From contig NZ_RYYU01000001.1 of NCBI RefSeq assembly GCF_003977605.1, positions 1,936,539-2,000,538 on the forward strand: a stretch of DNA of 64,000 nt, read 5' to 3'. The notes beneath the pieces were generated by a model. The model did no database searches. It was not told the DNA's origin and worked only from the letters and a program-made list of their open reading frames with translations. Origin of the DNA: Prevotella koreensis. Its GTDB lineage: Bacteria; Bacteroidota; Bacteroidia; Bacteroidales; Bacteroidaceae. Positions 2,900-59,290 of the stretch are shown here, piece after piece (within the stretch, counting starts at the first letter, position 1; each line of letters starts with the position of its first letter). The translations under genes were made by a program, and so were the position numbers.

Positions 2900-3010
2900 C
2901 CCTCTGTCGAGCCTTATTCCACAACGCTCTACCTTTATTATATCTCTTTACCATTGGCATCAGAAAATGTTCTACAATGCTTTTCATAGTCAAAATTAAG
3001 TTAAATATAT

Positions 3011-3053
3011 GATGCAAAGAGAATATTATAATAATATTATAATTATCTTTGCA
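3011..3053 (+). promoter_or_regulatory. Promoter with near-palindromic AT-rich core, upstream of the ATPase gene
   Basis: TATCTTTG at 3044-3051 matches TAnnTTTG and could drive the ATPase gene 122 bp downstream. The box is the right half of an inverted repeat: TGCAAAGA (3013-3020) and TCTTTGCA (3046-3053) flank an A/T-only core that is itself nearly palindromic. A regulator binding here would cover the promoter; that is inference. Confidence 0.4.
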
Positions 3054-3173
3054 TAAAATTGTAACCATAATCAGTTGTCCATAATTAAATGTTATAAATT
3101 CTATGGGATGGCAAGTGAAGAGAATAAGAAATACGTTTAATAGTGAACATCTGATTATATAATAATATGAGTT

Positions 3174-4295
3174 ATGGAACTAACAAATCCTTTCATAATA
3201 CATGGCTATCACTCTCCTCATTATTTCTGCGATCGTGAGGAGGAGACAAAGTTGCTCACAAATGCTTTTACCAACGGAAATAACGTGGCGTTGATTTCTC
3301 CGCGACGTTTGGGAAAGACCGGACTGATATGTCATTGTATGCAACAGGAACAAATAAAAGAGAATTACTACACGTTTCTTGTTGACATCTACGCAACGAA
3401 AAACCTGCAAGAGTTTGTTTACGAACTTGGGAAAACGGTTGTAGATGTGCTCAAATCGCGTGGCAGAAAGGCGTGGGAAATGTTTGTTAACTGTCTCACA
3501 TCGTTGCGTGGCAGCCTGTCATTCGATATGAATGGCAAACCGGAATGGACGATGAGCCTCGGTGAGATAGCAACGCCGATAGTAACTCTCGATGAGATTT
3601 TCCGCTATCTGGAAGGAGCAGACAACCGTTGCATCGTGGCGATAGACGAGTTTCAAGCCATAGCAGGATATCCCGAGAAAAACGTTGAGGCTTTGTTGCG
3701 CACCCATATTCAGCACTGCCGTAATTGCAATTTCATCTTTGCAGGGTCGGAACGACATGTGATGACTGAGATTTTTCTTAGTGCTTCGCGACCGTTCTAT
3801 CAGAGCACCAAGATGATAACGATTCTTCCCATAGAATGTGACCGTTACGTTGATTTTGCACAACGTCTTTTCAAAGAATACGACAAGGCGATAGACCGTG
3901 AAGCGGTTGTTGAGATATATAACCGTTATGAGGGCATCACATGGTATGTGCAGTCGGTTCTCAATTCTCTCTTCACTACCACTCCGGTTGGTGGTCGGTG
4001 TGATGTCGGAGATGTTTCGCAGGCGATAGAACAGGTTGTGGTGCAGCAGAGCTTTGCATATTCGTCTCTTCTCTATCAGTTGCCGGCAAAACAGAAAGAG
4101 GTATTGATTGCCATCTGTCGTGAGGGAAAGGCTCGTAACATTTCATCAAAGGATTTCTTGCAACGTCACCACCTCACGGCAAGCAGTGTGCAGGCCGCTG
4201 TAAAGGGTTTGCTTGAAAAGGATTTTATAACGTCAGACCTTGGCACATTCACCGTATATGACAAGTTCTTTGCCGATTGGTTGTTGAGACAGTGA
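3174..4295 (+). CDS. Archaeal-type AAA+ ATPase (ATPase_2 family)
   Basis: A 373-residue P-loop ATPase. Walker A is SPRRLGKTG (residues 42-50), Walker B is CIVAIDEFQAI (about 153-163) and a sensor-like FIFAGSERHVM follows. The last ~90 residues look like a winged helix (KDFLQRHHLTASSVQAAVKG). This architecture is that of the Pfam ATPase_2 (PF01637) family, common as orphan genes in Bacteroidetes; the cellular role of most members is not established. The gene stands alone, with its own putative promoter, and its 3' side is occupied by two repeat families. It could have a regulatory or mobile-element-defence role, but nothing in the sequence decides that. Confidence 0.85.
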   Translation: MELTNPFIIHGYHSPHYFCDREEETKLLTNAFTNGNNVALISPRRLGKTGLICHCMQQEQIKENYYTFLVDIYATKNLQEFVYELGKTVVDVLKSRGRKAWEMFVNCLTSLRGSLSFDMNGKPEWTMSLGEIATPIVTLDEIFRYLEGADNRCIVAIDEFQAIAGYPEKNVEALLRTHIQHCRNCNFIFAGSERHVMTEIFLSASRPFYQSTKMITILPIECDRYVDFAQRLFKEYDKAIDREAVVEIYNRYEGITWYVQSVLNSLFTTTPVGGRCDVGDVSQAIEQVVVQQSFAYSSLLYQLPAKQKEVLIAICREGKARNISSKDFLQRHHLTASSVQAAVKGLLEKDFITSDLGTFTVYDKFFADWLLRQ

Positions 4296-4380
4296 CAGCC
4301 GATAAGTGCAAACCGATGTGCGCAATATAATGTTTCAGAGCCTTATAAGTCGCATAGAACAATGTGAAAGGAGATGTTAT

Positions 4381-4462
4381 GGTTTGCAATTTGGGCGAAA
4401 TTGAGGAACAAAATAGGCGAGATTGGTTTGCAATTTAGGCGAATTTGCAAACCAATCTCGCC
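4381..4462. repeat. GGGCGAAATTG intergenic repeat, copy A
   Basis: Three degenerate units of the type GCAATTTGGGCGAAATTG follow each other, and the last two form a perfect 18-bp stem: GGCGAGATTGGTTTGCAA (4416-4433) with its complement at 4445-4462, loop 11 nt. The same unit recurs at 23843-23929, 49834-49911 and 60261-60322. Copy A lies between the convergent ends of the ATPase gene and the yqeY-like gene and could act as a 3'-end hairpin. Confidence 0.75.
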
Positions 4463-4509
4463 GGTTTTAGGATTTAGGAGTTTGTCACGGCATATATGCC
4501 TGACGTGAG

Positions 4510-4713
4510 TTTAAACCCCAATCGGTCGTTAGAACCCTGATCTGATTTCGTTCGATTGCCAGGCAGATGTGCTGACGTTTCATCGAAGGCGTAGCGGGCT
4601 ACGTCGAGATGTAATGGCAGTGCAGATGTCGGCAAGCGGACAAAAGCAGTAGGGAAGCATACCGGCAATAGCAAAAATAAGCAAATGCGGTCTAAGGACT
4701 GATTTGGGTTTAA
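4510..4713. mobile_element. MITE-like palindromic element, copy 1
   Basis: A 204-bp element that is an imperfect inverted repeat along its whole length. The ends read TTTAAACCCCAATCGGTC and, inverted, TTAAACCCAAATCAGTC. An internal arm TTCGTTCGATTGCCAGGCAG pairs with the region of GTCGGCAAGCGGAC. Homologous copies lie at 34018-34219 and 39784-39987. The TTAA at both ends could be a target duplication. No transposase is encoded; a 66-codon open frame inside aligns with frames in the other copies but is best explained by DNA-level conservation. The right end lies 9 bp from the stop codon of the yqeY-like gene. Confidence 0.75.
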
Positions 4714-4721
4714 CTACTGCT

Positions 4722-5168
4722 TCAAGCCAAAAGGCTGCGCACCACTGCCGAAATCTTGCCGCCCTCGGCTCGTCCGGCCATTTGTTTGCTTGCAATGCCC
4801 ATCACTTTTCCCATATCTTTCATTGATGTGGCACCTGTCTCAGCAATTATTTTCTTCACTTCCTCCTCTATTTCGCTGTCGGAAAGTTGTTTTGGCAGAT
4901 AACTTTCAAGCACCTCCACCTGTGCCAATTCGGCTTCGGCAAGGTCTTGTCTGCCGGCACCGGTGTAAGTGGTGGCAGTCTCGCGACCCTGTTTTGCCAG
5001 TTTGGCTATGATTTTCAGCGCATCAACATCTTCGAGAGTGTCGTTTGCACCGGGTGCAGTCTTCGCCTCAAGGAATACTTTCTTTATGTTGCGCAGCGTT
5101 TCAAGCCGTACTTTGTCTCTGGCTTTCATTGCCGCCTTGATGTCTTCACTTATTTGATCGAATAGCAT
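4722..5168 (-). CDS. GatB/YqeY domain protein
   Basis: A 148-residue member of the YqeY family, related to the tail domain of the GatB amidotransferase subunit. Motifs visible are the N-terminal helical segment DIKAAMKARDKVRLETLRN, the central ESYLPKQLSDSEI and the C-terminal GKVMGIASKQMAGRAEGG, which resembles the tRNA-interacting tail of GatB. The exact function of stand-alone YqeY is not settled; a role near tRNA-dependent amidation is inferred from the domain. It follows ftsZ by 12 bp and is probably the last gene of the dcw transcript. Confidence 0.9.
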   Translation of the reverse strand: MLFDQISEDIKAAMKARDKVRLETLRNIKKVFLEAKTAPGANDTLEDVDALKIIAKLAKQGRETATTYTGAGRQDLAEAELAQVEVLESYLPKQLSDSEIEEEVKKIIAETGATSMKDMGKVMGIASKQMAGRAEGGKISAVVRSLLA

Positions 5169-5180
5169 AATTATTGATAT

Positions 5181-6500
5181 TTAAAAAACTATTTTTCCTG
5201 TTACGTCAATTTTCTGTTCGTCGCTTTCTTTTTCGCCATCGCCTTTACCGGTGGCCTGTGAGCGAATGTTGTCGAGAATCTGTCGCGTGCGCTTGTATGT
5301 GGGAGTCTGTTCCACGGCAGATATAACGTTGTCGTTGTCGAGGTCTTCGTGACGGAAGATAAATATGTGCGGACGACGTTTATACTGCGATGTCTTTCCG
5401 TCTTTGCCGTAGTATCTGTTTCGGCGGTCTTGTCGTTCTGCCGCTTTCTCCTCTTCCTCTGCTATGCGGTTCTGCTCTTCCATGGTGCGTTTCTTGAAGT
5501 GGCCGTCCATTCCGTCCACATTCTCTATGCCGAAGCCCGTTGCGAGAATCGTCACTTTCACCTTAGGTCCCAGTTCCGGGTCGGTGGCAAGTCCCCATTT
5601 CAGTTCAAATCCGGTGCCGAAGCGAGCCATGAACTCGTTGACATCATTCATTTCTTCCATCGTAAGGCTTGCGTTGTTCTGTTTGTCAGAGCAGAAAGAG
5701 ATAGACAGCAGTATCTTCTTTGAGTTGAAGACATCGTTATCGTTGAGCAACGGAGAGTTCAGTGCATCCTCAATGGCTTTCTTCACTCGTCCTTCTCCTT
5801 CGCCATATCCTGTTGACATGATAGCGACTCCACCGTCTTTCAGCACCGTCTTAACATCGTTGAAGTCAAGGTTTATCAGTCCGTGAACGGTGATAATCTC
5901 TGCTATCGACTTCGCAGCAATGCTCAGAGTGTCGTCGGCCTTGGCGAAAGCGTCGAGCACTGTCAGTTCGGGATATATCTCACGCAGTCTTTCGTTGTTG
6001 ATAACGAGAAGCGCATCTACATGTTTGGCCATCTCCTCAACACCGTCGAGAGCCTGGTCTATCTTGCGATCGCCTTCAAAACGGAACGGAATGGTTACGA
6101 TGCCCACGGTGAGTATGCCCATTTCCTTGCTTGTTCGGGCAATCACCGGTGCTGCTCCGGTGCCTGTACCACCACCCATTCCTGCCGTGATGAATGCCAT
6201 TTTAGTGCCGTCACTGAGCATATTCTTCACGTCAGCGAGACTCTCTTCTGCGGCCTCGCGTGCCTTGTCGGGCTTGTTCCCGGCTCCGAGTCCCTCTTTT
6301 CCGAGTTGCAGGTGCACCGGCACGGGTGAGTCGTTGAGAGCCTGATTGTCGGTATTGCAAAGGACGAAAGACACATCGTGAATGCCTTCTCTGTACATGT
6401 GGTTCACTGCGTTGCCGCCACCGCCGCCAACGCCTATCACTTTTATTATGCTGTTATCTTTTTCGGGCTCACCGAAATCCAATATCATATTGTCTGGCAT
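5181..6500 (-). CDS. ftsZ: Cell division protein FtsZ
   Basis: Tubulin-like GTPase that polymerises into the Z-ring. Of 439 residues, the GTPase domain shows VIGVGGGGGNAVNHM (21-35) and the tubulin signature GGGTGTG (109-115), followed by the T7 loop region with NLDFNDVKTVL. The C-terminal ~120 residues form a charged linker ending in KIDVTGKIVF; the E. coli-type C-terminal peptide (IPAFLRKQ-like) is not recognisable. It is 41 bp downstream of ftsA and 12 bp upstream of the yqeY-like gene. Confidence 0.98.
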   Translation of the reverse strand: MPDNMILDFGEPEKDNSIIKVIGVGGGGGNAVNHMYREGIHDVSFVLCNTDNQALNDSPVPVHLQLGKEGLGAGNKPDKAREAAEESLADVKNMLSDGTKMAFITAGMGGGTGTGAAPVIARTSKEMGILTVGIVTIPFRFEGDRKIDQALDGVEEMAKHVDALLVINNERLREIYPELTVLDAFAKADDTLSIAAKSIAEIITVHGLINLDFNDVKTVLKDGGVAIMSTGYGEGEGRVKKAIEDALNSPLLNDNDVFNSKKILLSISFCSDKQNNASLTMEEMNDVNEFMARFGTGFELKWGLATDPELGPKVKVTILATGFGIENVDGMDGHFKKRTMEEQNRIAEEEEKAAERQDRRNRYYGKDGKTSQYKRRPHIFIFRHEDLDNDNVISAVEQTPTYKRTRQILDNIRSQATGKGDGEKESDEQKIDVTGKIVF

Positions 6501-23842: not shown

Positions 23843-23929
23843 ACCAATTTGGGCGAAATTGTTTTTCATATTTGGCGATTTTGGTTTGCAATTTGGGCGA
23901 TTTTGGTCAGCAATTTCGCCCAAATTGTT
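23843..23929. repeat. GGGCGAAATTG intergenic repeat, copy B
   Basis: Three units follow in direct order (ACCAATTTGGGCGAAATTG, CATATTTGGCGATTTTGG, GCAATTTGGGCGATTTTGG) and the last is inverted. AATTTGGGCGA (23890-23900) pairs with TCGCCCAAATT (23916-23926), followed by GTTTTT. It lies between the convergent ends of glsB and dgt and could serve as a terminator for glsB. Confidence 0.75.
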
Positions 23930-48519: not shown

Positions 48520-49658
48520 AACGATTTTTGTTTTTATGCCTTATTTTAAGCGTCGGTTGTGTGGCAATGGCTCAACCGAAAGAGAGGCGACAGGTGATTT
48601 TTGTTGACCATAGCGATGACTCTACCAAGTTTTATATAGACGAACTGGAGTATGCAACGATTGACAGTACAACAACCACAACACCGAAATATAAATATGT
48701 AAACCTGAAGAGAAAGACCGGAGCGGATGTCCGGATGTATTTCTCGAACATTAAGAACGTGGTGTTCCGGAAGGTGAAAGAGAATGTTGTGTTGCCAGAC
48801 AAAGCCCCCAAAGTGGGCGACTATTATTATAGTGACGGCACATGGAGTGACGGCGGACTTGTAAGTATCAACGATGATGGTACAAAGCCGGTGTGGGCAG
48901 AGGTGAAACCTGCTCCTGTTCAAGGGAAGACGGTGATTGGTATAGTGGCCGTGACCGACACATTGCGCATGGCACAGAGCGATCGTGACGCAGGATTCAA
49001 GCATGGGTATGTGGTTTGCAGTAAGTTTGTACACGACCCGAACAACAAGCATCCGAACAACGGAGAGCCTTTTGCAACCACGAAATTCTCTTTCGATGAC
49101 AATTTCGAGTGTGATATAAAAGTGAGGAAAACCGGTAAGTCGTGGTATGAAGACATTGAAGGTCGTGAGCATTGCAGAAAAGTAATCGCGTATTATGGGA
49201 ACGCGCTCGTGACGCAATGTCCCACAGTTTACTACACCAACATTATGGCTCATCCGTCAACATCAAGCGAGTGGTTTATCCCTTCCACCGGACAGATGTG
49301 GGATGTGTTGGCAAACTTGTGTGGCAACACTGCCGCACAACGCATGAAAGGGTGGCGTACAGTCACTGAAGATGCCACAATAAACTGCACGGCATATATC
49401 TACGACGACCCGATGTCGCACTTCAACAGCACCCTTGATAAAGTGGCTGAGATCGATAAGGAATTGCTTGAGTTAGATAGTGATTTCCACAACTATTGTC
49501 CGTTGTGGACCAGTACGCGTTATAGTGAAGACGCAATGGATATTTTCATTGTTGGCACGAAGCACAAATCGGGAAACTATAAGGGTAAGTCGCTGATAGA
49601 ATGTATGGCGGAGTGGTATAACGGAGACTGTTATGCACGACCGATATTGGCCTTCTGA
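48516..49658 (+). CDS. Secreted protein, diverged FISUMP/DUF1566-like
   Basis: A 380-residue protein with signal peptide (1-19, ending AMA) and two N-terminal copies of the module seen in its neighbours (STKFYIDELEYATI; GADVRMYFSNIKNVVF). The C-terminal half contains SSEWFIPSTGQMWDVLAN and CPLWTSTRY, reminiscent of the WxIPSxxQW and W(S/T)ST motifs of FISUMP and DUF1566 domains, so I regard it as a distant relative. I do not recognise a defined family. It overlaps the preceding small gene by 4 bp and ends at a strong terminator. Confidence 0.7.
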   Translation: MKRFLFLCLILSVGCVAMAQPKERRQVIFVDHSDDSTKFYIDELEYATIDSTTTTTPKYKYVNLKRKTGADVRMYFSNIKNVVFRKVKENVVLPDKAPKVGDYYYSDGTWSDGGLVSINDDGTKPVWAEVKPAPVQGKTVIGIVAVTDTLRMAQSDRDAGFKHGYVVCSKFVHDPNNKHPNNGEPFATTKFSFDDNFECDIKVRKTGKSWYEDIEGREHCRKVIAYYGNALVTQCPTVYYTNIMAHPSTSSEWFIPSTGQMWDVLANLCGNTAAQRMKGWRTVTEDATINCTAYIYDDPMSHFNSTLDKVAEIDKELLELDSDFHNYCPLWTSTRYSEDAMDIFIVGTKHKSGNYKGKSLIECMAEWYNGDCYARPILAF

Positions 49659-49682
49659 AAATTAGAGATAGGGGAGAATGTA

Positions 49683-49742
49683 TTAAGGAGTTTAGTGGTG
49701 ACATAGTTTATAAAGTCACTACTAAACTCCTTAAATTTTTTT
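49683..49742 (+). terminator. Terminator of the 48130-49658 operon
   Basis: TTAAGGAGTTTAGTGGTGAC (49683-49702) pairs with 49715-49734 with one G-T pair, 12-nt loop, followed by AAATTTTTTT. Confidence 0.85.
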
Positions 49743-49775
49743 CTTCATTTCTTTAATCTTCATCGGCAATCAGGC

Positions 49776-49793
49776 AATAATGGCCGATTGGGG
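49776..49793. mobile_element. Possible remnant of a MITE terminal repeat
   Basis: AATAATGGCCGATTGGGG matches 13 consecutive bases of the inverted left end of MITE copy 3 (ATAATGGCCGATT) and agrees with copy 1 in the following GGGG. The rest of the element is missing. GGGCG repeat copy C starts 40 bp to the right. Confidence 0.35.
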
Positions 49794-49833
49794 CGACGAA
49801 AGGAATCAGATGCGAAACCAAAACAGGCTGTTT

Positions 49834-49911
49834 TGCCGAGCAAATTGGGCGAAATTGCCGAGTAAAATGGGCGATTTTGGTTTCCAATTTGGGCGAAATT
49901 GCAATGCAAAG
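49834..49911. repeat. GGGCGAAATTG intergenic repeat, copy C
   Basis: Three direct units: GAGCAAATTGGGCGAAATTG, GAGTAAAATGGGCGATTTTG and TTCCAATTTGGGCGAAATTG. Unlike the other copies it lacks an inverted last unit and so cannot form the same hairpin. It lies between the convergent genes ending at 49658 and 50070. Confidence 0.72.
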
Positions 49912-50012
49912 TGCTGTTCTCCGGTAGGCGTTTCATGTTATATCCTAATCCGTTATCATACTGATGTTTCTCTGCATCCTATTGATTTCGGCTATTCCTG
50001 ATTTCTTTTTTT

Positions 50013-50062
50013 GAAAAAAAATATGAAGGCTCTAATTCCCGATTTGGGAATAATAGAGCCTT
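50013..50062 (-). terminator. Terminator of the 50070-53070 operon
   Basis: AAGGCTCTAATTCCC (50026-50040) pairs with GGGAATAATAGAGCCTT (50046-50062) around a 5-nt loop. On the minus strand it is followed by CATATTTTTTTT. Confidence 0.85.
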
Positions 50063-50069
50063 TTAATTC

Positions 50070-51962
50070 TTATTTTATCCACACTTTCTTTCCCTTGTGT
50101 ATGAACAGTCCGTGCTGTGGTTGTGCCACACGCTGTCCTTGCAGGTTGTACCAAGCATTATCAGTGGTCTCGTTATTTACGATGTTGATGCCGGTAGGGA
50201 TATCTGTTGCATCGATATATGTCAACTGTATTGCTGGGGCTTCAGCGCAACGGAGTTCGTTATCATGAATATTTAACACGTGGTCTTTTGCATAATTCTC
50301 CATGAAAGTAGTCTTGTCGCTGGCGAATATAGCCGAGCGGTATGGTTCTTTTGGCTCGCGCGAAACGAAGTAGAACTGGAAAATGTCTGTAGATGGATCG
50401 AAATAAGTCTCGCTCTCGTTCGTTATCGTCACCACGAGCGACTTGCCATTATATTTGTAAGGCTTGTCCTTGATGTCCAAAGCGAGGTGGAAGTCTTCAC
50501 CGTTATTGAATGCCTGCACGAAGTTTGCAGTCATGTCGTAGGTTGTTGAAGGCTCTGCATACTCGGTCTGAATCCACTCGTACTTAGACAACTCATCGTT
50601 GTAAGGGAATGTTTCTTTGTCGGTTTCTGTGATATACACTTTTACCGTGCTCTTATATGCATCTTGAGTATATGCGCCGGACATTCCTGAGAACGTGAGT
50701 GATGTTATGGCCTTGCCATTGAGTTTTTCCAACCATGCGGCAGGATAGATTGTCTGCGTACCGCTGTTCTTATAGTTGAATGTCATTGGCGAGTTGTGAT
50801 TGTTGAATCCATCGTATGCCACCTTGTCGTTGCCTTTTCCGTAGAAGTTGCCTATTGTAAGCACTCCGTCCGGATCGGGGTCTGGTTCGGTAGATTTCTT
50901 TACTATCACATAGAACGTTCCGGCCTCAAGCGTTGCCGGTTCTGCCTGATGATAGAATCCATATTTTCCTTCCTTCTCGCCGAATACATAGATTGTGTCA
51001 CCGTTAGCCACTGTTCCGTCGCTTACCTTTATCAGGTTATCGGCAATGGGAGAGGCTTCTGTGTCAGTCGAATAGAATACCGGAGCCACGAGCGAGCGAA
51101 TTATAAGGTTTGCCCCTGTCGGTGCTTCGGTAACTTTTTCGTAAGTTATCTTACCATCTGTTGTGGCAGTAACCTTGAGCGCATCAAGTCCGGCGATGTT
51201 GAGATCGGTGTCATACTTCGCCGTGAATGTTCTCCAAGTGCTGTCGGGTGCAGTAGTATCGGCATATCCGTAGGCCACTGCCGGCATGTCCACCAGTCCC
51301 AGGTTTCCTGCCGGTTTCAGGTCTCCGTTGAGTACTTCTGCCGGGTTTCTGCTCTCCGGGAAAGTCAATGTGCTCTTAGATGTTTTCTTTACCTTTGGGA
51401 AATCAATAATGAATCCACCATCGGTGCAGGTCTCACCGGTGGCTGTCACAGTCACCACGAGGTTGTTCTCTCCGCTGTAATAGAACGGACGGTCGAACGT
51501 AATGGTGAACTCCGGTCCCATTGTACCGTCCCAGTTGTATATCTCGCTCAGTGTCAGTGTGCCTTGATATACGGACTGTTGCCAACTTGTGTCGAAGAAT
51601 CTGAATCTTTTTTCTTCTTTCTTGAAAGCCTCCCTATTTGTCTCACCGATGTATATCGTGATGTCGCGAGTAAGGTCTTCACCGTAATATCCGTTGTTAT
51701 ACATTCTCAGATTCAGCGTAGTGATGTTCTTTCCCGCCATTGCCGCGATGTCGGCTTTTGGCAGAATCGTTTGCGAACCGCTATTCTCCAGATAGTAATT
51801 TATGGGTGCTATCTCGTAGTAGTTCCCTGTTTCATAGAGGTTTTCGGGTTTCTCTCCGCCCTCCTCCAACTCGGCATAGTTGCCGAGTGATAGTTTCTGT
51901 GCCGATGCCGTACAGAATGTGGTACCGAGTAACAGTGCCGTGAGTAAATGTTTTGTTTTCAT
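50070..51962 (-). CDS. Two-lobed secreted protein with YNLxGQRV tail
   Basis: A 630-residue protein: signal peptide (1-21, ending ASA), then two homologous beta-rich lobes (about residues 25-205 and 367-550). These share the order LS/TIGN, P(I/M)xxxYxNSGxQTIxP, KxITxLxF/L, a segment on IYIGETNRE / VYITETDKE, and a YYSGENNLVVTVT / YKYNGKSLVVTIT strand. Between them is a region with GDTIYVFGE. The C-terminal tail contains TGINIV, YNLQGQRV and GKKVWIK. I do not recognise the lobes; they may be carbohydrate- or protein-binding. It follows the 51982 gene by 19 bp. Confidence 0.75.
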   Translation of the reverse strand: MKTKHLLTALLLGTTFCTASAQKLSLGNYAELEEGGEKPENLYETGNYYEIAPINYYLENSGSQTILPKADIAAMAGKNITTLNLRMYNNGYYGEDLTRDITIYIGETNREAFKKEEKRFRFFDTSWQQSVYQGTLTLSEIYNWDGTMGPEFTITFDRPFYYSGENNLVVTVTATGETCTDGGFIIDFPKVKKTSKSTLTFPESRNPAEVLNGDLKPAGNLGLVDMPAVAYGYADTTAPDSTWRTFTAKYDTDLNIAGLDALKVTATTDGKITYEKVTEAPTGANLIIRSLVAPVFYSTDTEASPIADNLIKVSDGTVANGDTIYVFGEKEGKYGFYHQAEPATLEAGTFYVIVKKSTEPDPDPDGVLTIGNFYGKGNDKVAYDGFNNHNSPMTFNYKNSGTQTIYPAAWLEKLNGKAITSLTFSGMSGAYTQDAYKSTVKVYITETDKETFPYNDELSKYEWIQTEYAEPSTTYDMTANFVQAFNNGEDFHLALDIKDKPYKYNGKSLVVTITNESETYFDPSTDIFQFYFVSREPKEPYRSAIFASDKTTFMENYAKDHVLNIHDNELRCAEAPAIQLTYIDATDIPTGINIVNNETTDNAWYNLQGQRVAQPQHGLFIHKGKKVWIK

Positions 51963-55548: not shown

Positions 55549-55959
55549 ATTTTTAATATTTTTGTGTAAATCATCAATTATTGCTATGTGAAGGTGCAAA
55601 AATATTCACTTTACACCTCGTTTTATGGGGTGTTTTTGTATTTTGGTTTCAAATTATAAGTTTGTGATTTTGTTGTTTGTAATTTGCTGTATTGTAGTGT
55701 GTTTTGTATTCCTTTCATAATGTCAGTATGCCGTTTTTTGTTGCCGTGTAACAAGATTGGTTTTAAAGTGTTACTTTTTTGTATATTTTTGCTCTAAAAA
55801 ACAACTATGCAGTTTCTGACGTTATGATGTGTTGTTACGTCACTTTTTTGCAACATAAAGAGTAACAACGCTGTGATGTGAATACTCAAATGCCCTATCC
55901 GTTACTTATGCCGTGAGCAAAAAAATGCTTTTTTATTTTGTGTTACAATCATTTTCCAG
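55549..55959. other. AT-rich intergenic region without recognised gene
   Basis: About 410 bp of very AT-rich DNA. An inverted pair GTTGTTAC (55831-55838) and GTAACAAC (55862-55869) and an isolated TATTTTTG (55784-55791) are present, which could mark a small RNA or regulatory structure; nothing firm can be said. Confidence 0.4.
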
Positions 55960-55967
55960 TACTTTTG
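55960..55967 (+). promoter_or_regulatory. -7 box (with -33 TTTG) for the thioredoxin-fold lipoprotein
   Basis: TACTTTTG is preceded at 19 bp by TTTTG (55936-55940), the full TTTG-N19-TAnnTTTG arrangement. It lies 32 bp before the ATG at 56000. Confidence 0.7.
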
Positions 55968-55999
55968 CAATCAAAATAAGAGAAATAAATAACATTGGT

Positions 56000-57151
56000 A
56001 TGAAACGTAACTCCATTATAATAGCCATTTGCGCGATGGCTGTAGTAACTTTCACGGCGTGTAATGAAAGTAAATTCCGTATTGAAGGAAGTATTGCTAA
56101 CGCCAAGGATTCTATGCTTTATCTTGAGAATATGAGTCTTGACGGACCGGTGAAGACCGACTCGGTGAAACTTGATGAGAACGGTGCATTTTCTTTCTGT
56201 GGTGAGAAACCGGAGGCTCCGGAGTTTTACCGGCTTCGCATCGCTGCACAGATAATAAACATAAGCATCGACTCAACAGAAACGGTGACGGTGAAGGCAC
56301 GCTATCCGGAAATGGCTTCGCAATATACTGTGGAAGGTTCGGAGAACTGTTCTAAGATAAAGGAACTTGCTTTGCGACAGATGTCGCTGCAACAGAAAGT
56401 AATAGAAATCAGTCAAAATCCTATGTTGGGCGTTAGGGCTACCGAGGATTCGATACAAAGTTTGGTAGATGCTTACAAAGAAGATGTTAAGAGGAATTAT
56501 ATATTCAAGGAACCGATGAAGGCTTACTCGTACTTCGCTCTGTTCCAGACTTTGGGTAATGTGTTTATATTCAACCCTCGGAATGATGCCGACGACGTTA
56601 AGGTGTTCGGGGCGGTTGCCACAAGTTGGGACACGTATCACCCTAATACGCTGCGCGGACAGAATCTTCATAACATAACCATTGAGGGTATGAAGAACCA
56701 AAGAATATTGAAGAATAGAGATTTGGAGATTGATGCCTCGAAAGTGAATACTTCTAATATCATAAATATTGCATTAGTGGATAACCGCGGTACGATGAGA
56801 CAACTGACCGACCTGCAAGGCAAAGTGGTGTTTCTCGACTTTCATCTGTTCTCCTCGGAGAAGAGCACCGAGAGGATAATGATGCTGCGCGAACTGTATA
56901 ATAAGTACCATGAGCGTGGATTGGAGATTTTCCAAGTTGGTCTTGATGAGGATGAACACTTCTGGAAACAACAAACTGCTGCACTGCCTTGGATCAGTGT
57001 GCGTGCCTCGGGAGAAGAAGCAGAGGCTCTCCTTATGAAATATAATGTGAGAAATATTCCCACGTTCTTCCTTGTAGATCGCAATAATGCTCTTTATAAG
57101 AGGGATGTGCAGATGAATGATTTTGAGAAGGAACTCCAGACACTTCTTTAG
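56000..57151 (+). CDS. DUF4369/thioredoxin-fold lipoprotein lacking CXXC
   Basis: A 383-residue lipoprotein: lipobox FTAC (Cys 21), a DUF4369-like beta domain (about 25-115, GSIANAKDSMLYLENMS), a helical linker, and a C-terminal thioredoxin fold of the TlpA/AhpC type (about 255-383). In redox-active members the strand VVFLDF is followed by WAxWCxxC. Here it is followed by HLFSSEKS (281-288), so both cysteines are missing, while the cis-proline loop NIPTFFLVD is kept. A disulfide role is therefore unlikely; a binding or scaffold role is inferred. The start at 56000 fits the promoter box; the frame opens earlier at 55913. Confidence 0.85.
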   Translation: MKRNSIIIAICAMAVVTFTACNESKFRIEGSIANAKDSMLYLENMSLDGPVKTDSVKLDENGAFSFCGEKPEAPEFYRLRIAAQIINISIDSTETVTVKARYPEMASQYTVEGSENCSKIKELALRQMSLQQKVIEISQNPMLGVRATEDSIQSLVDAYKEDVKRNYIFKEPMKAYSYFALFQTLGNVFIFNPRNDADDVKVFGAVATSWDTYHPNTLRGQNLHNITIEGMKNQRILKNRDLEIDASKVNTSNIINIALVDNRGTMRQLTDLQGKVVFLDFHLFSSEKSTERIMMLRELYNKYHERGLEIFQVGLDEDEHFWKQQTAALPWISVRASGEEAEALLMKYNVRNIPTFFLVDRNNALYKRDVQMNDFEKELQTLL

Positions 57152-57321
57152 GAAAGGAAGACAAAATGTTGTTTGACAGAAAGACAGAAATTGTTTGGAC
57201 ATAAATACAAATTTTGTTTGACATAAAGACAAATATGTTTAGACAGAAAGACAAATATGTTTAGACAGAAAGACATAATTTGTTGGAGGGATAGACAAAA
57301 AAGTTTTATAGAAAGAAAAAA
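57152..57321 (+). repeat. Array of ~22-bp repeats upstream of the GxxExxY gene
   Basis: Seven or eight degenerate units of about 22 bp without spacers; typical units read TTTGACATAAAGACAAATATG and TTTAGACAGAAAGACAAATATG. The array starts right after the preceding gene's stop codon and ends 24 bp before the GxxExxY ATG. The same unit occurs inverted behind the gene. Confidence 0.8.
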
Positions 57322-57345
57322 TGGGAGAAATCAAATATAAATATA

Positions 57346-57762
57346 ATGTATAATGGTATTAATGAAGAGGGGGTAAGTGTTGATGTGGAGGCAACAATCA
57401 GGGAAGTGGTTGATTGTGCCTATCATGTTCGCGGGCAGTTGAGTCAGGGATTTGAGGAGAAAATATATAAGAATGCGATGTGTATAGAGATGGGTAAGCG
57501 CGGGTTGGAGGTTAAAACAGAGGTTCCGGTGAACGTATATTACGATGACATAATAGTGGGACAGTACCGTGCGGACATCATTGTTAATAATGTTGTCATC
57601 ATCGAACTAAAAGCAAACCATTCGCTATGTCCTGCCAACGAGGTGCAACTCGTGAACTACCTAAACGCCTTACACATAGACAACGGCCTCCTTATCAACT
57701 TCGGAGGTGAAAAACTTGAGTGTAAACGTAAATTCAGAAAATATAAACTCCCTTTCCAATAA
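57346..57762 (+). CDS. GxxExxY protein (PD-(D/E)XK nuclease-like)
   Basis: A 138-residue protein with the family signature GFEEKIY (35-41; TIGR04256, PDDEXK_3). The nuclease-like core shows D77 (YRADIIV) and ELK (87-89), the D-x9-E-x-K pattern of the PD-(D/E)XK superfamily. Members are common across bacteria, but a biological role is not established. It starts at ATG 57346, 24 bp after an array of ~22-bp repeats, and is followed after about 20 bp by the same repeat in inverted order, so the gene sits in the middle of a symmetrical cassette. Confidence 0.88.
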   Translation: MYNGINEEGVSVDVEATIREVVDCAYHVRGQLSQGFEEKIYKNAMCIEMGKRGLEVKTEVPVNVYYDDIIVGQYRADIIVNNVVIIELKANHSLCPANEVQLVNYLNALHIDNGLLINFGGEKLECKRKFRKYKLPFQ

Positions 57763-57781
57763 CCTCTTAAAACTCTCCCTC

Positions 57782-57894
57782 TTTTTGTCTTTCCGTCTAA
57801 AAATTTCTGTCTTTATGTCCAAACATTTTTGTCTTTATGTCCAAACAATTTCTGTCTTTCTGTCTAAAAACAAGTCTTTATGTCCAAACAAATG
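57782..57894 (-). repeat. Inverted array of ~22-bp repeats downstream of the GxxExxY gene
   Basis: About five units on the plus strand reading TGTCTTTATGTCCAAACA and TGTCTTTCTGTCTAAAAA, which are the reverse complement of the units at 57152-57321. The last unit runs into the start of the Nudix gene. A further single unit, TTTGTCTGTCTAAATATTT, lies at 58452-58470 behind the Nudix gene. Confidence 0.8.
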
Positions 57895-58434
57895 ATGTCC
57901 CACCCTTTAGATAAATTCAAGTATTGTCCTTTATGTGGTTCCGCGTCTTTCATGTCATCTTCCGAAAAGAGCAAAAAGTGCGCATCATGTAATTTCGAGT
58001 TGTTCATGAACCCATCGGCAGCCACGGCAGCCTTTATCTTCGATAACAAAGGTCGTGTGCTTGTTGTCAGGCGCGGACGGGAGCCGGCCAAAGGTACACT
58101 CGACCTCCCCGGAGGTTTCAGTGACATCGGAGAAACGTCAGAAGAAACTGTCATCCGCGAAGTTAAGGAAGAAACGGGCTTGACGATAACATCGGTAGAG
58201 TTCCTATTTTCTCTTCCCAACACCTACCATTACAGCGGCATGACAATCCCCACCATCGACATGTTCTACCGTTGCGAGGTCGCAGACACCGCCATTTTAG
58301 TCCCCGACGATGATGTGGACGAAGCCGTATGGATTCCCATAAACGAATTGAAGCCCGAAAAATTCGGGCTCCAAAGCATTAGTAGTGGTGTAAAACGACT
58401 TCTTGACCAACACCTGTCAAGGTCGAAATCATAA
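57892..58434 (+). CDS. Nudix hydrolase with N-terminal zinc ribbon
   Basis: A 180-residue Nudix hydrolase, which should cleave a nucleoside diphosphate linked to another moiety; a four-cysteine ribbon as in NADH pyrophosphatase is present (CPLC and CASC, i.e. C12, C15, C30 and C33 from the chosen start). The Nudix box GGFSDIGETSEETVIREVKE begins near residue 74 and is complete (GX5EX7REUXEEXGU). The substrate is unclear; NAD-related or ADP-ribose compounds are possible. The frame starts at an ATG at 57880, but that ATG and MSKQ are encoded by the last repeat unit of the array, so the ATG at 57892 or 57895 is likelier. Confidence 0.88.
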   Translation: MMSHPLDKFKYCPLCGSASFMSSSEKSKKCASCNFELFMNPSAATAAFIFDNKGRVLVVRRGREPAKGTLDLPGGFSDIGETSEETVIREVKEETGLTITSVEFLFSLPNTYHYSGMTIPTIDMFYRCEVADTAILVPDDDVDEAVWIPINELKPEKFGLQSISSGVKRLLDQHLSRSKS

Positions 58435-58468
58435 CCGGTATATTTGAAATCTTTGTCTGTCTAAATAT

Positions 58469-59290
58469 TTATTCCTTTACTGATTTTGCGAATTCGGTCT
58501 CAAGCAAGCCTTTTTTCTTCATGTCTTTCAAAGAGATTTTTACTGTAGGAGTACCGAAATAGTAAGGCCCTACCTCATATTGCTGGTAAATGAATACCAC
58601 GCTATCATTCTGGATGAACAATCCTGAATTAGGCAGTTCGGCAAGTTTTTCCTTTCCGTTCTCGTCTTTCAACATTGATTCGGCCTCTTTATAGTCTTTG
58701 CCCATAATGCTCTTGAATACGTTCACAAGTTCGTCGTTTACGGCTTTCTTCACATCTCCGAGTTTATCCTGTGCCAAGATGTTCATGCCAATCACCTTAC
58801 CGTCGGCCTTGTTGAATGTTACACCTTTCTCGGTGTATGCTCCGTGTGGTCCGCCAAGGTAGATGTTTTCCTTCACCGACATGGTTATAATCTGGTCGTT
58901 TTCATACATAATACCAATTTCCAGTGAACTGTAAAGAGCCGGACCTACAGAGTCAGTACCTTCGTACTCGGCTTCTCCTTTCAGTTTCTTAGACTTTGTT
59001 TCTACGTAGTAGTGAGCCATTGCCCTCACGTCTTTCAAATCAACGCTATCGTTTGCCCCTACGCTCTCTTTGATAAATTCTTTCACACTCTTCTCCAAGG
59101 CTTCGTTACCTACGGGGAAAACAATCTTTACCTGGGCGGTTATATCCTGCTTGCCTTCACGGAATGTGACAGAATCACTCACGCTGTCTTTCTCAACAGT
59201 TCCGTTGTTGGCATTTTTGCCGTCACCCTTTACGTTGCTGCATGCAGCCAAGAACATTATTGCTGCAGCAAAAAACATAATCTTTTTCAT
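58469..59290 (-). CDS. DUF3298/RsiV-like lipoprotein
   Basis: A 273-residue lipoprotein: lipobox LAAC (Cys 17), a DUF4163-like domain (about 45-135) and a DUF3298 domain (about 140-265) with the motifs YLGGPHGAYTEKGVTF and FIYQQYEVGPYYFGTP. These motifs are shared with the extracellular part of the anti-sigma factor RsiV, where the region binds lysozyme. Here there is no anti-sigma domain, only a lipid anchor. Lysozyme or other wall-ligand binding is a hypothesis. It is probably co-transcribed with the lipoprotein 38 bp upstream. Confidence 0.88.
   Translation of the reverse strand: MKKIMFFAAAIMFLAACSNVKGDGKNANNGTVEKDSVSDSVTFREGKQDITAQVKIVFPVGNEALEKSVKEFIKESVGANDSVDLKDVRAMAHYYVETKSKKLKGEAEYEGTDSVGPALYSSLEIGIMYENDQIITMSVKENIYLGGPHGAYTEKGVTFNKADGKVIGMNILAQDKLGDVKKAVNDELVNVFKSIMGKDYKEAESMLKDENGKEKLAELPNSGLFIQNDSVVFIYQQYEVGPYYFGTPTVKISLKDMKKKGLLETEFAKSVKE

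Follow-up and report, generated by a model that had tools for sequence, protein, structure and literature searches.

The GxxExxY cassette in the window

In the window, the whole stretch of 64,000 nucleotides of Prevotella koreensis DNA that was analysed, a gene annotated as GxxExxY is enclosed by two opposed arrays of a short tandem repeat; besides the two host genes listed in Table 1, a DUF3298 gene is also among the neighbours of this cassette. Tandem Repeats Finder assigned a period of 22 to both arrays, with 7.4 copies in the upstream array and 4.9 copies in the downstream array (57782–57888), and a repeat search of the window aligned positions 57167–57255 with positions 57784–57872 as an inverted match of 89 nt that is 87% complementary. 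A scan with the core GACANAAAGACANA, allowing at most two mismatches, gave 26 occurrences in the window versus 8.8 expected, a number that was reached in 0 of 100 shuffles. The inverted arrays of ~22 bp units that were reported around the gene in the preliminary description are thus real. The units do follow each other head-to-tail, as was also stated there, but they are spacer-free only in this sense, since each unit of 22–23 bp consists of a conserved 12 nt core and a variable linker of ~10 nt. An extra unit that had been placed at 58452–58470 is a partial match only, was missed by the core scan with two mismatches and may be due to chance. The gap between the upstream array and the gene start is 25 bp, and that between the gene end and the downstream array is 19 bp. 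A CRISPR array is ruled out by this anatomy of 12 nt cores, ~10 nt linkers and two opposed arrays, and a known RNA was rejected as no Rfam family was matched.

Table 1. Positions of the cassette and adjacent features in the window.
Feature	Position	Strand	Description
Left neighbour, DUF4369 + thioredoxin-like	55913..57151	+	Host gene, outside the cassette
Whole cassette	57152..57894	none	Occupies the entire interval from the DUF4369/thioredoxin-like gene to the Nudix gene
Upstream array	57158..57320	+	~7 units of 22–23 bp, core GACAKAAAGACA + variable linker
GxxExxY gene	57346..57762	+	138 aa, PD-(D/E)XK nuclease fold (TIGR04256, PF13366)
Downstream array	57782..57895	-	~5 units, repeat of the upstream array inverted; array end touches the Nudix start codon
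Right neighbour, Nudix hydrolase	57880..58434	+	Host gene, outside the cassette
Partial unit likeness 3' of the Nudix gene	58449..58478	-	73% complementary over 30 nt; weak, possibly chance

The GxxExxY protein

GxxExxY is a common annotation with no known role. The window protein is a clear member of this family, scoring above the curated cut-offs of both TIGR04256 (126 bits, cut-off 35) and PDDEXK_3, PF13366 (119 bits, cut-off 22), for which the libraries give just the name and the nuclease superfamily. The residues G35, E38, Y41, D77, E87, K89, Q101 and Y105 show no variation among 25 diverse sequences and correspond to a PD-(D/E)XK site with a RecB-type QxxxY motif (E87-x-K89 and Q101-xxx-Y105). 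For the AlphaFold model of the window protein (pLDDT 92), Cas4 SSO0001 (PDB entry 4ic1) was the only Foldseek match with an E value below 0.001 (7.7e-5) and was also the top structural match, with a Z score of 9.6; a profile search of PDB sequences with GxxExxY gave no match. The two proteins share the fold and the positions of the D, E-x-K and QxxxY residues, whereas GxxExxY has 138 aa and no cysteine in its invariant or nearly invariant columns, in contrast to the four cysteines of Cas4 that belong to an Fe–S cluster, and neither cas genes nor a CRISPR array lie near the window gene.

Purifying selection on the gene is strong: the pairwise dN/dS is ~0.05, with dS partly saturated. By tblastn, no relatives were found in 50,697 phage records, and among 72,556 plasmid records eight had one, for the most part on very large replicons; a search of viral contigs that was sensitive to close relatives only also found none. 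A virus-borne element was rejected, as no phage or viral-contig relative was found, and so was an anti-phage defence protein, as three GxxExxY proteins gave no PADLOC match. In three genomes, GxxExxY matches lie within open frames of 883 aa, apparently fused to a much larger protein (G141:C9:91044, G169:C1:72354 and G153:C22:338277), and pairs of adjacent GxxExxY genes were seen at L062 (G085:C68:6002 and 6497) and L276 (G145:C1:1593381 and 1593858).

Inverted arms around GxxExxY genes in other genomes

Focusing on the flanks of the gene, 132 usable GxxExxY loci, mostly from Prevotella, were obtained from 100 same-genus genomes and from a contig scan that reached Verrucomicrobia, Lentisphaerales and one proteobacterium, and a local score of at least 30 was taken as an inverted-flank match. 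The upstream flank matched the inverted downstream flank at 75% of these loci, compared with 2.6% when flanks were mispaired (n = 1320) and 2.0% at 250 other genes, and among loci drawn across Bacteroidota the proportion was 59% versus 2% in the control. About a quarter of the 132 loci lie below the threshold, some of them without visible arms. GxxExxY genes in related genomes are therefore mostly enclosed by similar inverted arrays, as at the window locus. The typical arm is composed of three 8–9 bp units (CACAGAGGA, CACAGATTT, CACGAATTT, ACAGGATTA and others, also the 7 bp GACTTTA) and sits a few bp from the start or stop codon of the gene. In Sphingomonas, where the gene lies between fabD and fabG, the right arm is inside the gene's own 3' end.

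The unit differs between protein clades, and both arms of a cassette match. When the upstream arm of one locus was compared with the inverted downstream arm of another locus, the share of similar pairs increased as the proteins became more alike, from 1% (below 40% identity) through 13% (50–60%) and 68% (70–80%) up to 81% (Mantel p = 0.001). As arm similarity tracks protein identity, the arms appear to belong to the protein, with both arms changing in concert, although shared descent of whole cassettes could yield part of this correlation without recognition. Independent variation of gene and repeats was not seen; unit and protein co-vary.

The unit and the gene also go together at the level of genomes. 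A GxxExxY gene that passes the family cut-off was present in 63 of the 100 same-genus genomes and in 29 of the 61 genomes drawn from Bacteroidota. The generic unit, defined as CACRRAGN{1,2}CACRRAG and counted as abundant at five or more hits per genome, is abundant in 15 of these 29 Bacteroidota genomes and in 0 of the 32 that lack the gene (Fisher p = 1e-6, with no phylogenetic correction). The window core is in excess in nine of the 100 same-genus genomes, three of which combine that unit with an intact gene and two retain such arms around a decayed gene, while one has a related unit and three have no cognate gene. Orphan arrays are present in G012, G038 and G068, in which the GACAKAAA unit is in excess and no GxxExxY gene is flanked by that unit.

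Gene-less copies in the window genome

Solitary arrays, as envisaged in the preliminary description, are present. The window genome of 2.69 Mb has one GxxExxY gene and 90 occurrences of the exact core, versus 10 of a control pattern, and these occurrences group into ~20 further, intergenic and gene-less loci. Eleven of these loci are two-armed, with the forward array before the reverse array in all 11, and most of them have only a short loop between the arms; L033 contains a perfectly palindromic pair with 37 nt in each arm. The linkers of paired arms match within an element beyond what is due to sharing of the unit (p = 1.5e-4, double-centred permutation), which suggests that the pairing itself, beyond the unit, is kept or regenerated.

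The solitary arrays lie between convergent, divergent and co-directional genes, often near gene ends, and a role as bidirectional terminators was rejected on account of these mixed orientations. Arrays as breakpoints of synteny were likewise set aside: no gene adjacency was conserved at six array loci in two relatives, but only about half of the array-free intergenic gaps were conserved in a 20 kb control, and the contrast was not significant.

Filled, empty and decayed sites

The absence of the cassette from the window locus in a relative, which the preliminary description had raised, was found in genome G011, where the genes that flank the cassette (the AhpC/Nudix junction) are 14 nt apart. 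In two other relatives (L082 and L110) a cassette precedes the same Nudix gene as in the window; at L110 the GxxExxY gene is internally deleted with both arms retained, and L148 likewise has a decayed gene with both arms kept. Together with the recurrent flanks and the solitary arrays, the absence at this junction upholds the earlier view of gene and repeats as one cassette.

At the Bacteroides radA junction, closely related cassettes lie tight against the radA stop codon in three genomes, divergent cassettes with different units are present in two genomes, and several gaps of 1–7 nt are armless, one of them in a genome with a 98% identical RadA. A single degenerate arm remains at the gene-less radA sites L309 and L316, the best-resolved empty sites (L296, L302, L307 and L308) have no arm pair, and no target-site duplication was recognised at the examined sites. 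The four radA-site GxxExxY genes group together in the tree, with weak support, a grouping more in line with ancient vertical descent followed by losses than with recent movement; the site could thus be ancestral instead of a target of independent insertions, and its filled and empty forms may reflect either gain or loss. At L293–L295, L299 and L304 of the same junction, the GxxExxY genes are 52–59% identical to that of B. finegoldii and the RadA proteins are ~95% identical, so that either gene and arms co-evolve very fast in place or one site is used repeatedly.

Proposed mechanism and alternatives

The preliminary description had offered a repeat-recognising nuclease or a selfish element as explanations, and the evidence fits both at once. 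Gene and arrays probably form one element, in which the GxxExxY nuclease acts on its own repeats in the manner of REP/RAYT systems with an unrelated enzyme. The specific mechanism, with its binding, cutting, hairpin substrate and movement, is one that we infer. GxxExxY would be a small PD-(D/E)XK nuclease with a Cas4/RecB-like fold, the substrate of which would be its own flanking repeat. The element consists of a forward arm, a centre and a reverse arm; the centre is the gene or, in solitary copies, only a short loop, and the arms in the window may be expanded to longer arrays compared with the three 8–9 bp units per arm of most relatives. The protein would recognise the paired arms, most likely folded as a hairpin or cruciform, and would cut there, and repair or copying of the cut ends may then spread short gene-less elements in trans and occasionally also the gene.

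The foremost alternative is that the protein is a regulator which binds DNA: the arms would be operator or boundary sites, and the protein would regulate itself through its own arms and, by binding the scattered copies, regulate or organise the chromosome; no movement would take place, and copies would spread by ordinary duplication. The strong purifying selection, the position of the arms a few bp from the start and stop codons and the intergenic copies, often near gene ends, suit such a regulator. We nevertheless consider it unlikely, as the conserved nuclease residues are not needed for operator binding, the genes around solitary copies show all orientations, with some copies behind convergent genes, and decayed genes have kept both arms.

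Two further explanations are each less probable than the regulator, and to a similar degree. In the first, the repeats would be a MITE-like family spread by another transposase, with the GxxExxY gene as a passenger or captured between copies, as the orphan arrays in three genomes and the ratio of ~20 gene-less loci to one gene in the window genome might indicate. A passenger, however, would show neither a different yet matching unit in each protein clade nor the covariation of arms and protein, and confinement of the generic unit to genomes with the gene is not expected of it; moreover, no other gene is regularly enclosed by the arrays. In the second, the solitary arm pairs would be targets that the nuclease cuts, whereupon the gene would be copied between the arms by homologous repair, as with a homing endonuclease. 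Although the gene takes the loop position of the solitary elements, the arms could supply homology for repair and one gene copy is accompanied by many empty arm pairs, the gene rarely multiplies despite dozens of targets, and the best-resolved empty sites had no arm pair, so that an insertion there would have brought its own arms. It is very improbable that the arms act as RNA, forming around the mRNA a long stem that serves its processing, its stability or recognition of the RNA, comparable to the stems of rRNA intervening sequences: the arms are close enough for co-transcription and the solitary elements fold into long hairpins, but the protein is similar to Cas4/RecB-group nucleases, which act on DNA, recognition by a protein accounts better for tandem units with a conserved core than a simple stem does, and Rfam gave no match.

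Relation to known systems

REP/RAYT (TnpA-REP) pairs, termed 'REPtrons', combine an enzyme gene with a dispersed palindrome-forming repeat (PMC8266576, PMC3733652). The nuclease element that we favour resembles them in three respects: its gene is chromosomal and has inverted copies of a short palindrome-forming repeat on both sides, the repeat also occurs many times elsewhere in the genome without the gene, and repeat and protein co-evolve. RAYTs are rare on plasmids and phages, a property that GxxExxY shares. Further hallmarks of REPtrons are a GTAG/CGTC tag that is conserved beside the palindrome and processing of the cognate repeat by the enzyme. However, a RAYT is an HuH tyrosine transposase, whereas GxxExxY is a PD-(D/E)XK protein of Cas4/RecB-like fold and its arms are direct repeats of 8–9 bp units (22 bp in the window). 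As the enzyme is not of the HuH type, membership of the REP/RAYT systems fails, and the claim is only that GxxExxY works like them.

The BrickBuilt MITE of Porphyromonas gingivalis is intergenic and composed of tandem 23 bp units without spacers, with ~19 copies per genome; a leader and a tail enclose its single direct array, its terminal repeats are IS5-like and it contains no gene (PMC4596501). The window element is comparable in its Bacteroidales host, intergenic position, unit length, spacer-free tandem units and copy number, but differs in having two opposed arrays with a nuclease gene, or a loop, between them. In the open-access literature that was searched, no published description of an association between GxxExxY and repeats was found, and an earlier remark elsewhere is possible.

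For the wider reading the arguments appear evenly balanced. Here, the GxxExxY proteins would be the enzymes of an unrecognised, phylum-crossing class of nuclease-driven dispersed repeats, in which each clade would have its own arm unit, the folded arm pair would be cut, and gene-less palindromes would thereby be spread and homogenised through bacterial chromosomes, as an independent counterpart of REP/RAYT with a Cas4-like nuclease. If true, this would explain a class of short interspersed repeats (of the CACAGAG, CACAGATT, ACAGGATT and GACATAAA types) in many genomes, and the arrangement of an enzyme with dispersed palindromes would have arisen at least twice, with unrelated enzymes. As the association with the arms allows a DNA substrate to be predicted for each protein straight from its flanks, the function is directly testable.

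Other arrays

A second family of intergenic arrays with a period of 22 bp, of the AATTTGGGCGAAATTGG type, is present in the window at 4380–4447, 23845–23916 and 49833–49902, and has no cognate GxxExxY gene in the window genome. The gap that contains the third of these (49658–50070) has a much shorter counterpart without this array in genome G028 (L284), and arrays of this type also adjoin GACAKAAA arrays at L036, L039 and L048. At L229 (G028:C35:182600-188500), more than 20 copies of the core with a spacing of ~19 bp extend over 2.6 kb (~2921–5543), 3' of a gene whose orthologue in the window genome has just a short array. At L040 (3063–5565), an unrelated gene of 472 aa lies between opposed arrays separated by 2.4 kb, and a similar version of the right array together with its flank is present 14 kb away at L041 (3050–3084).
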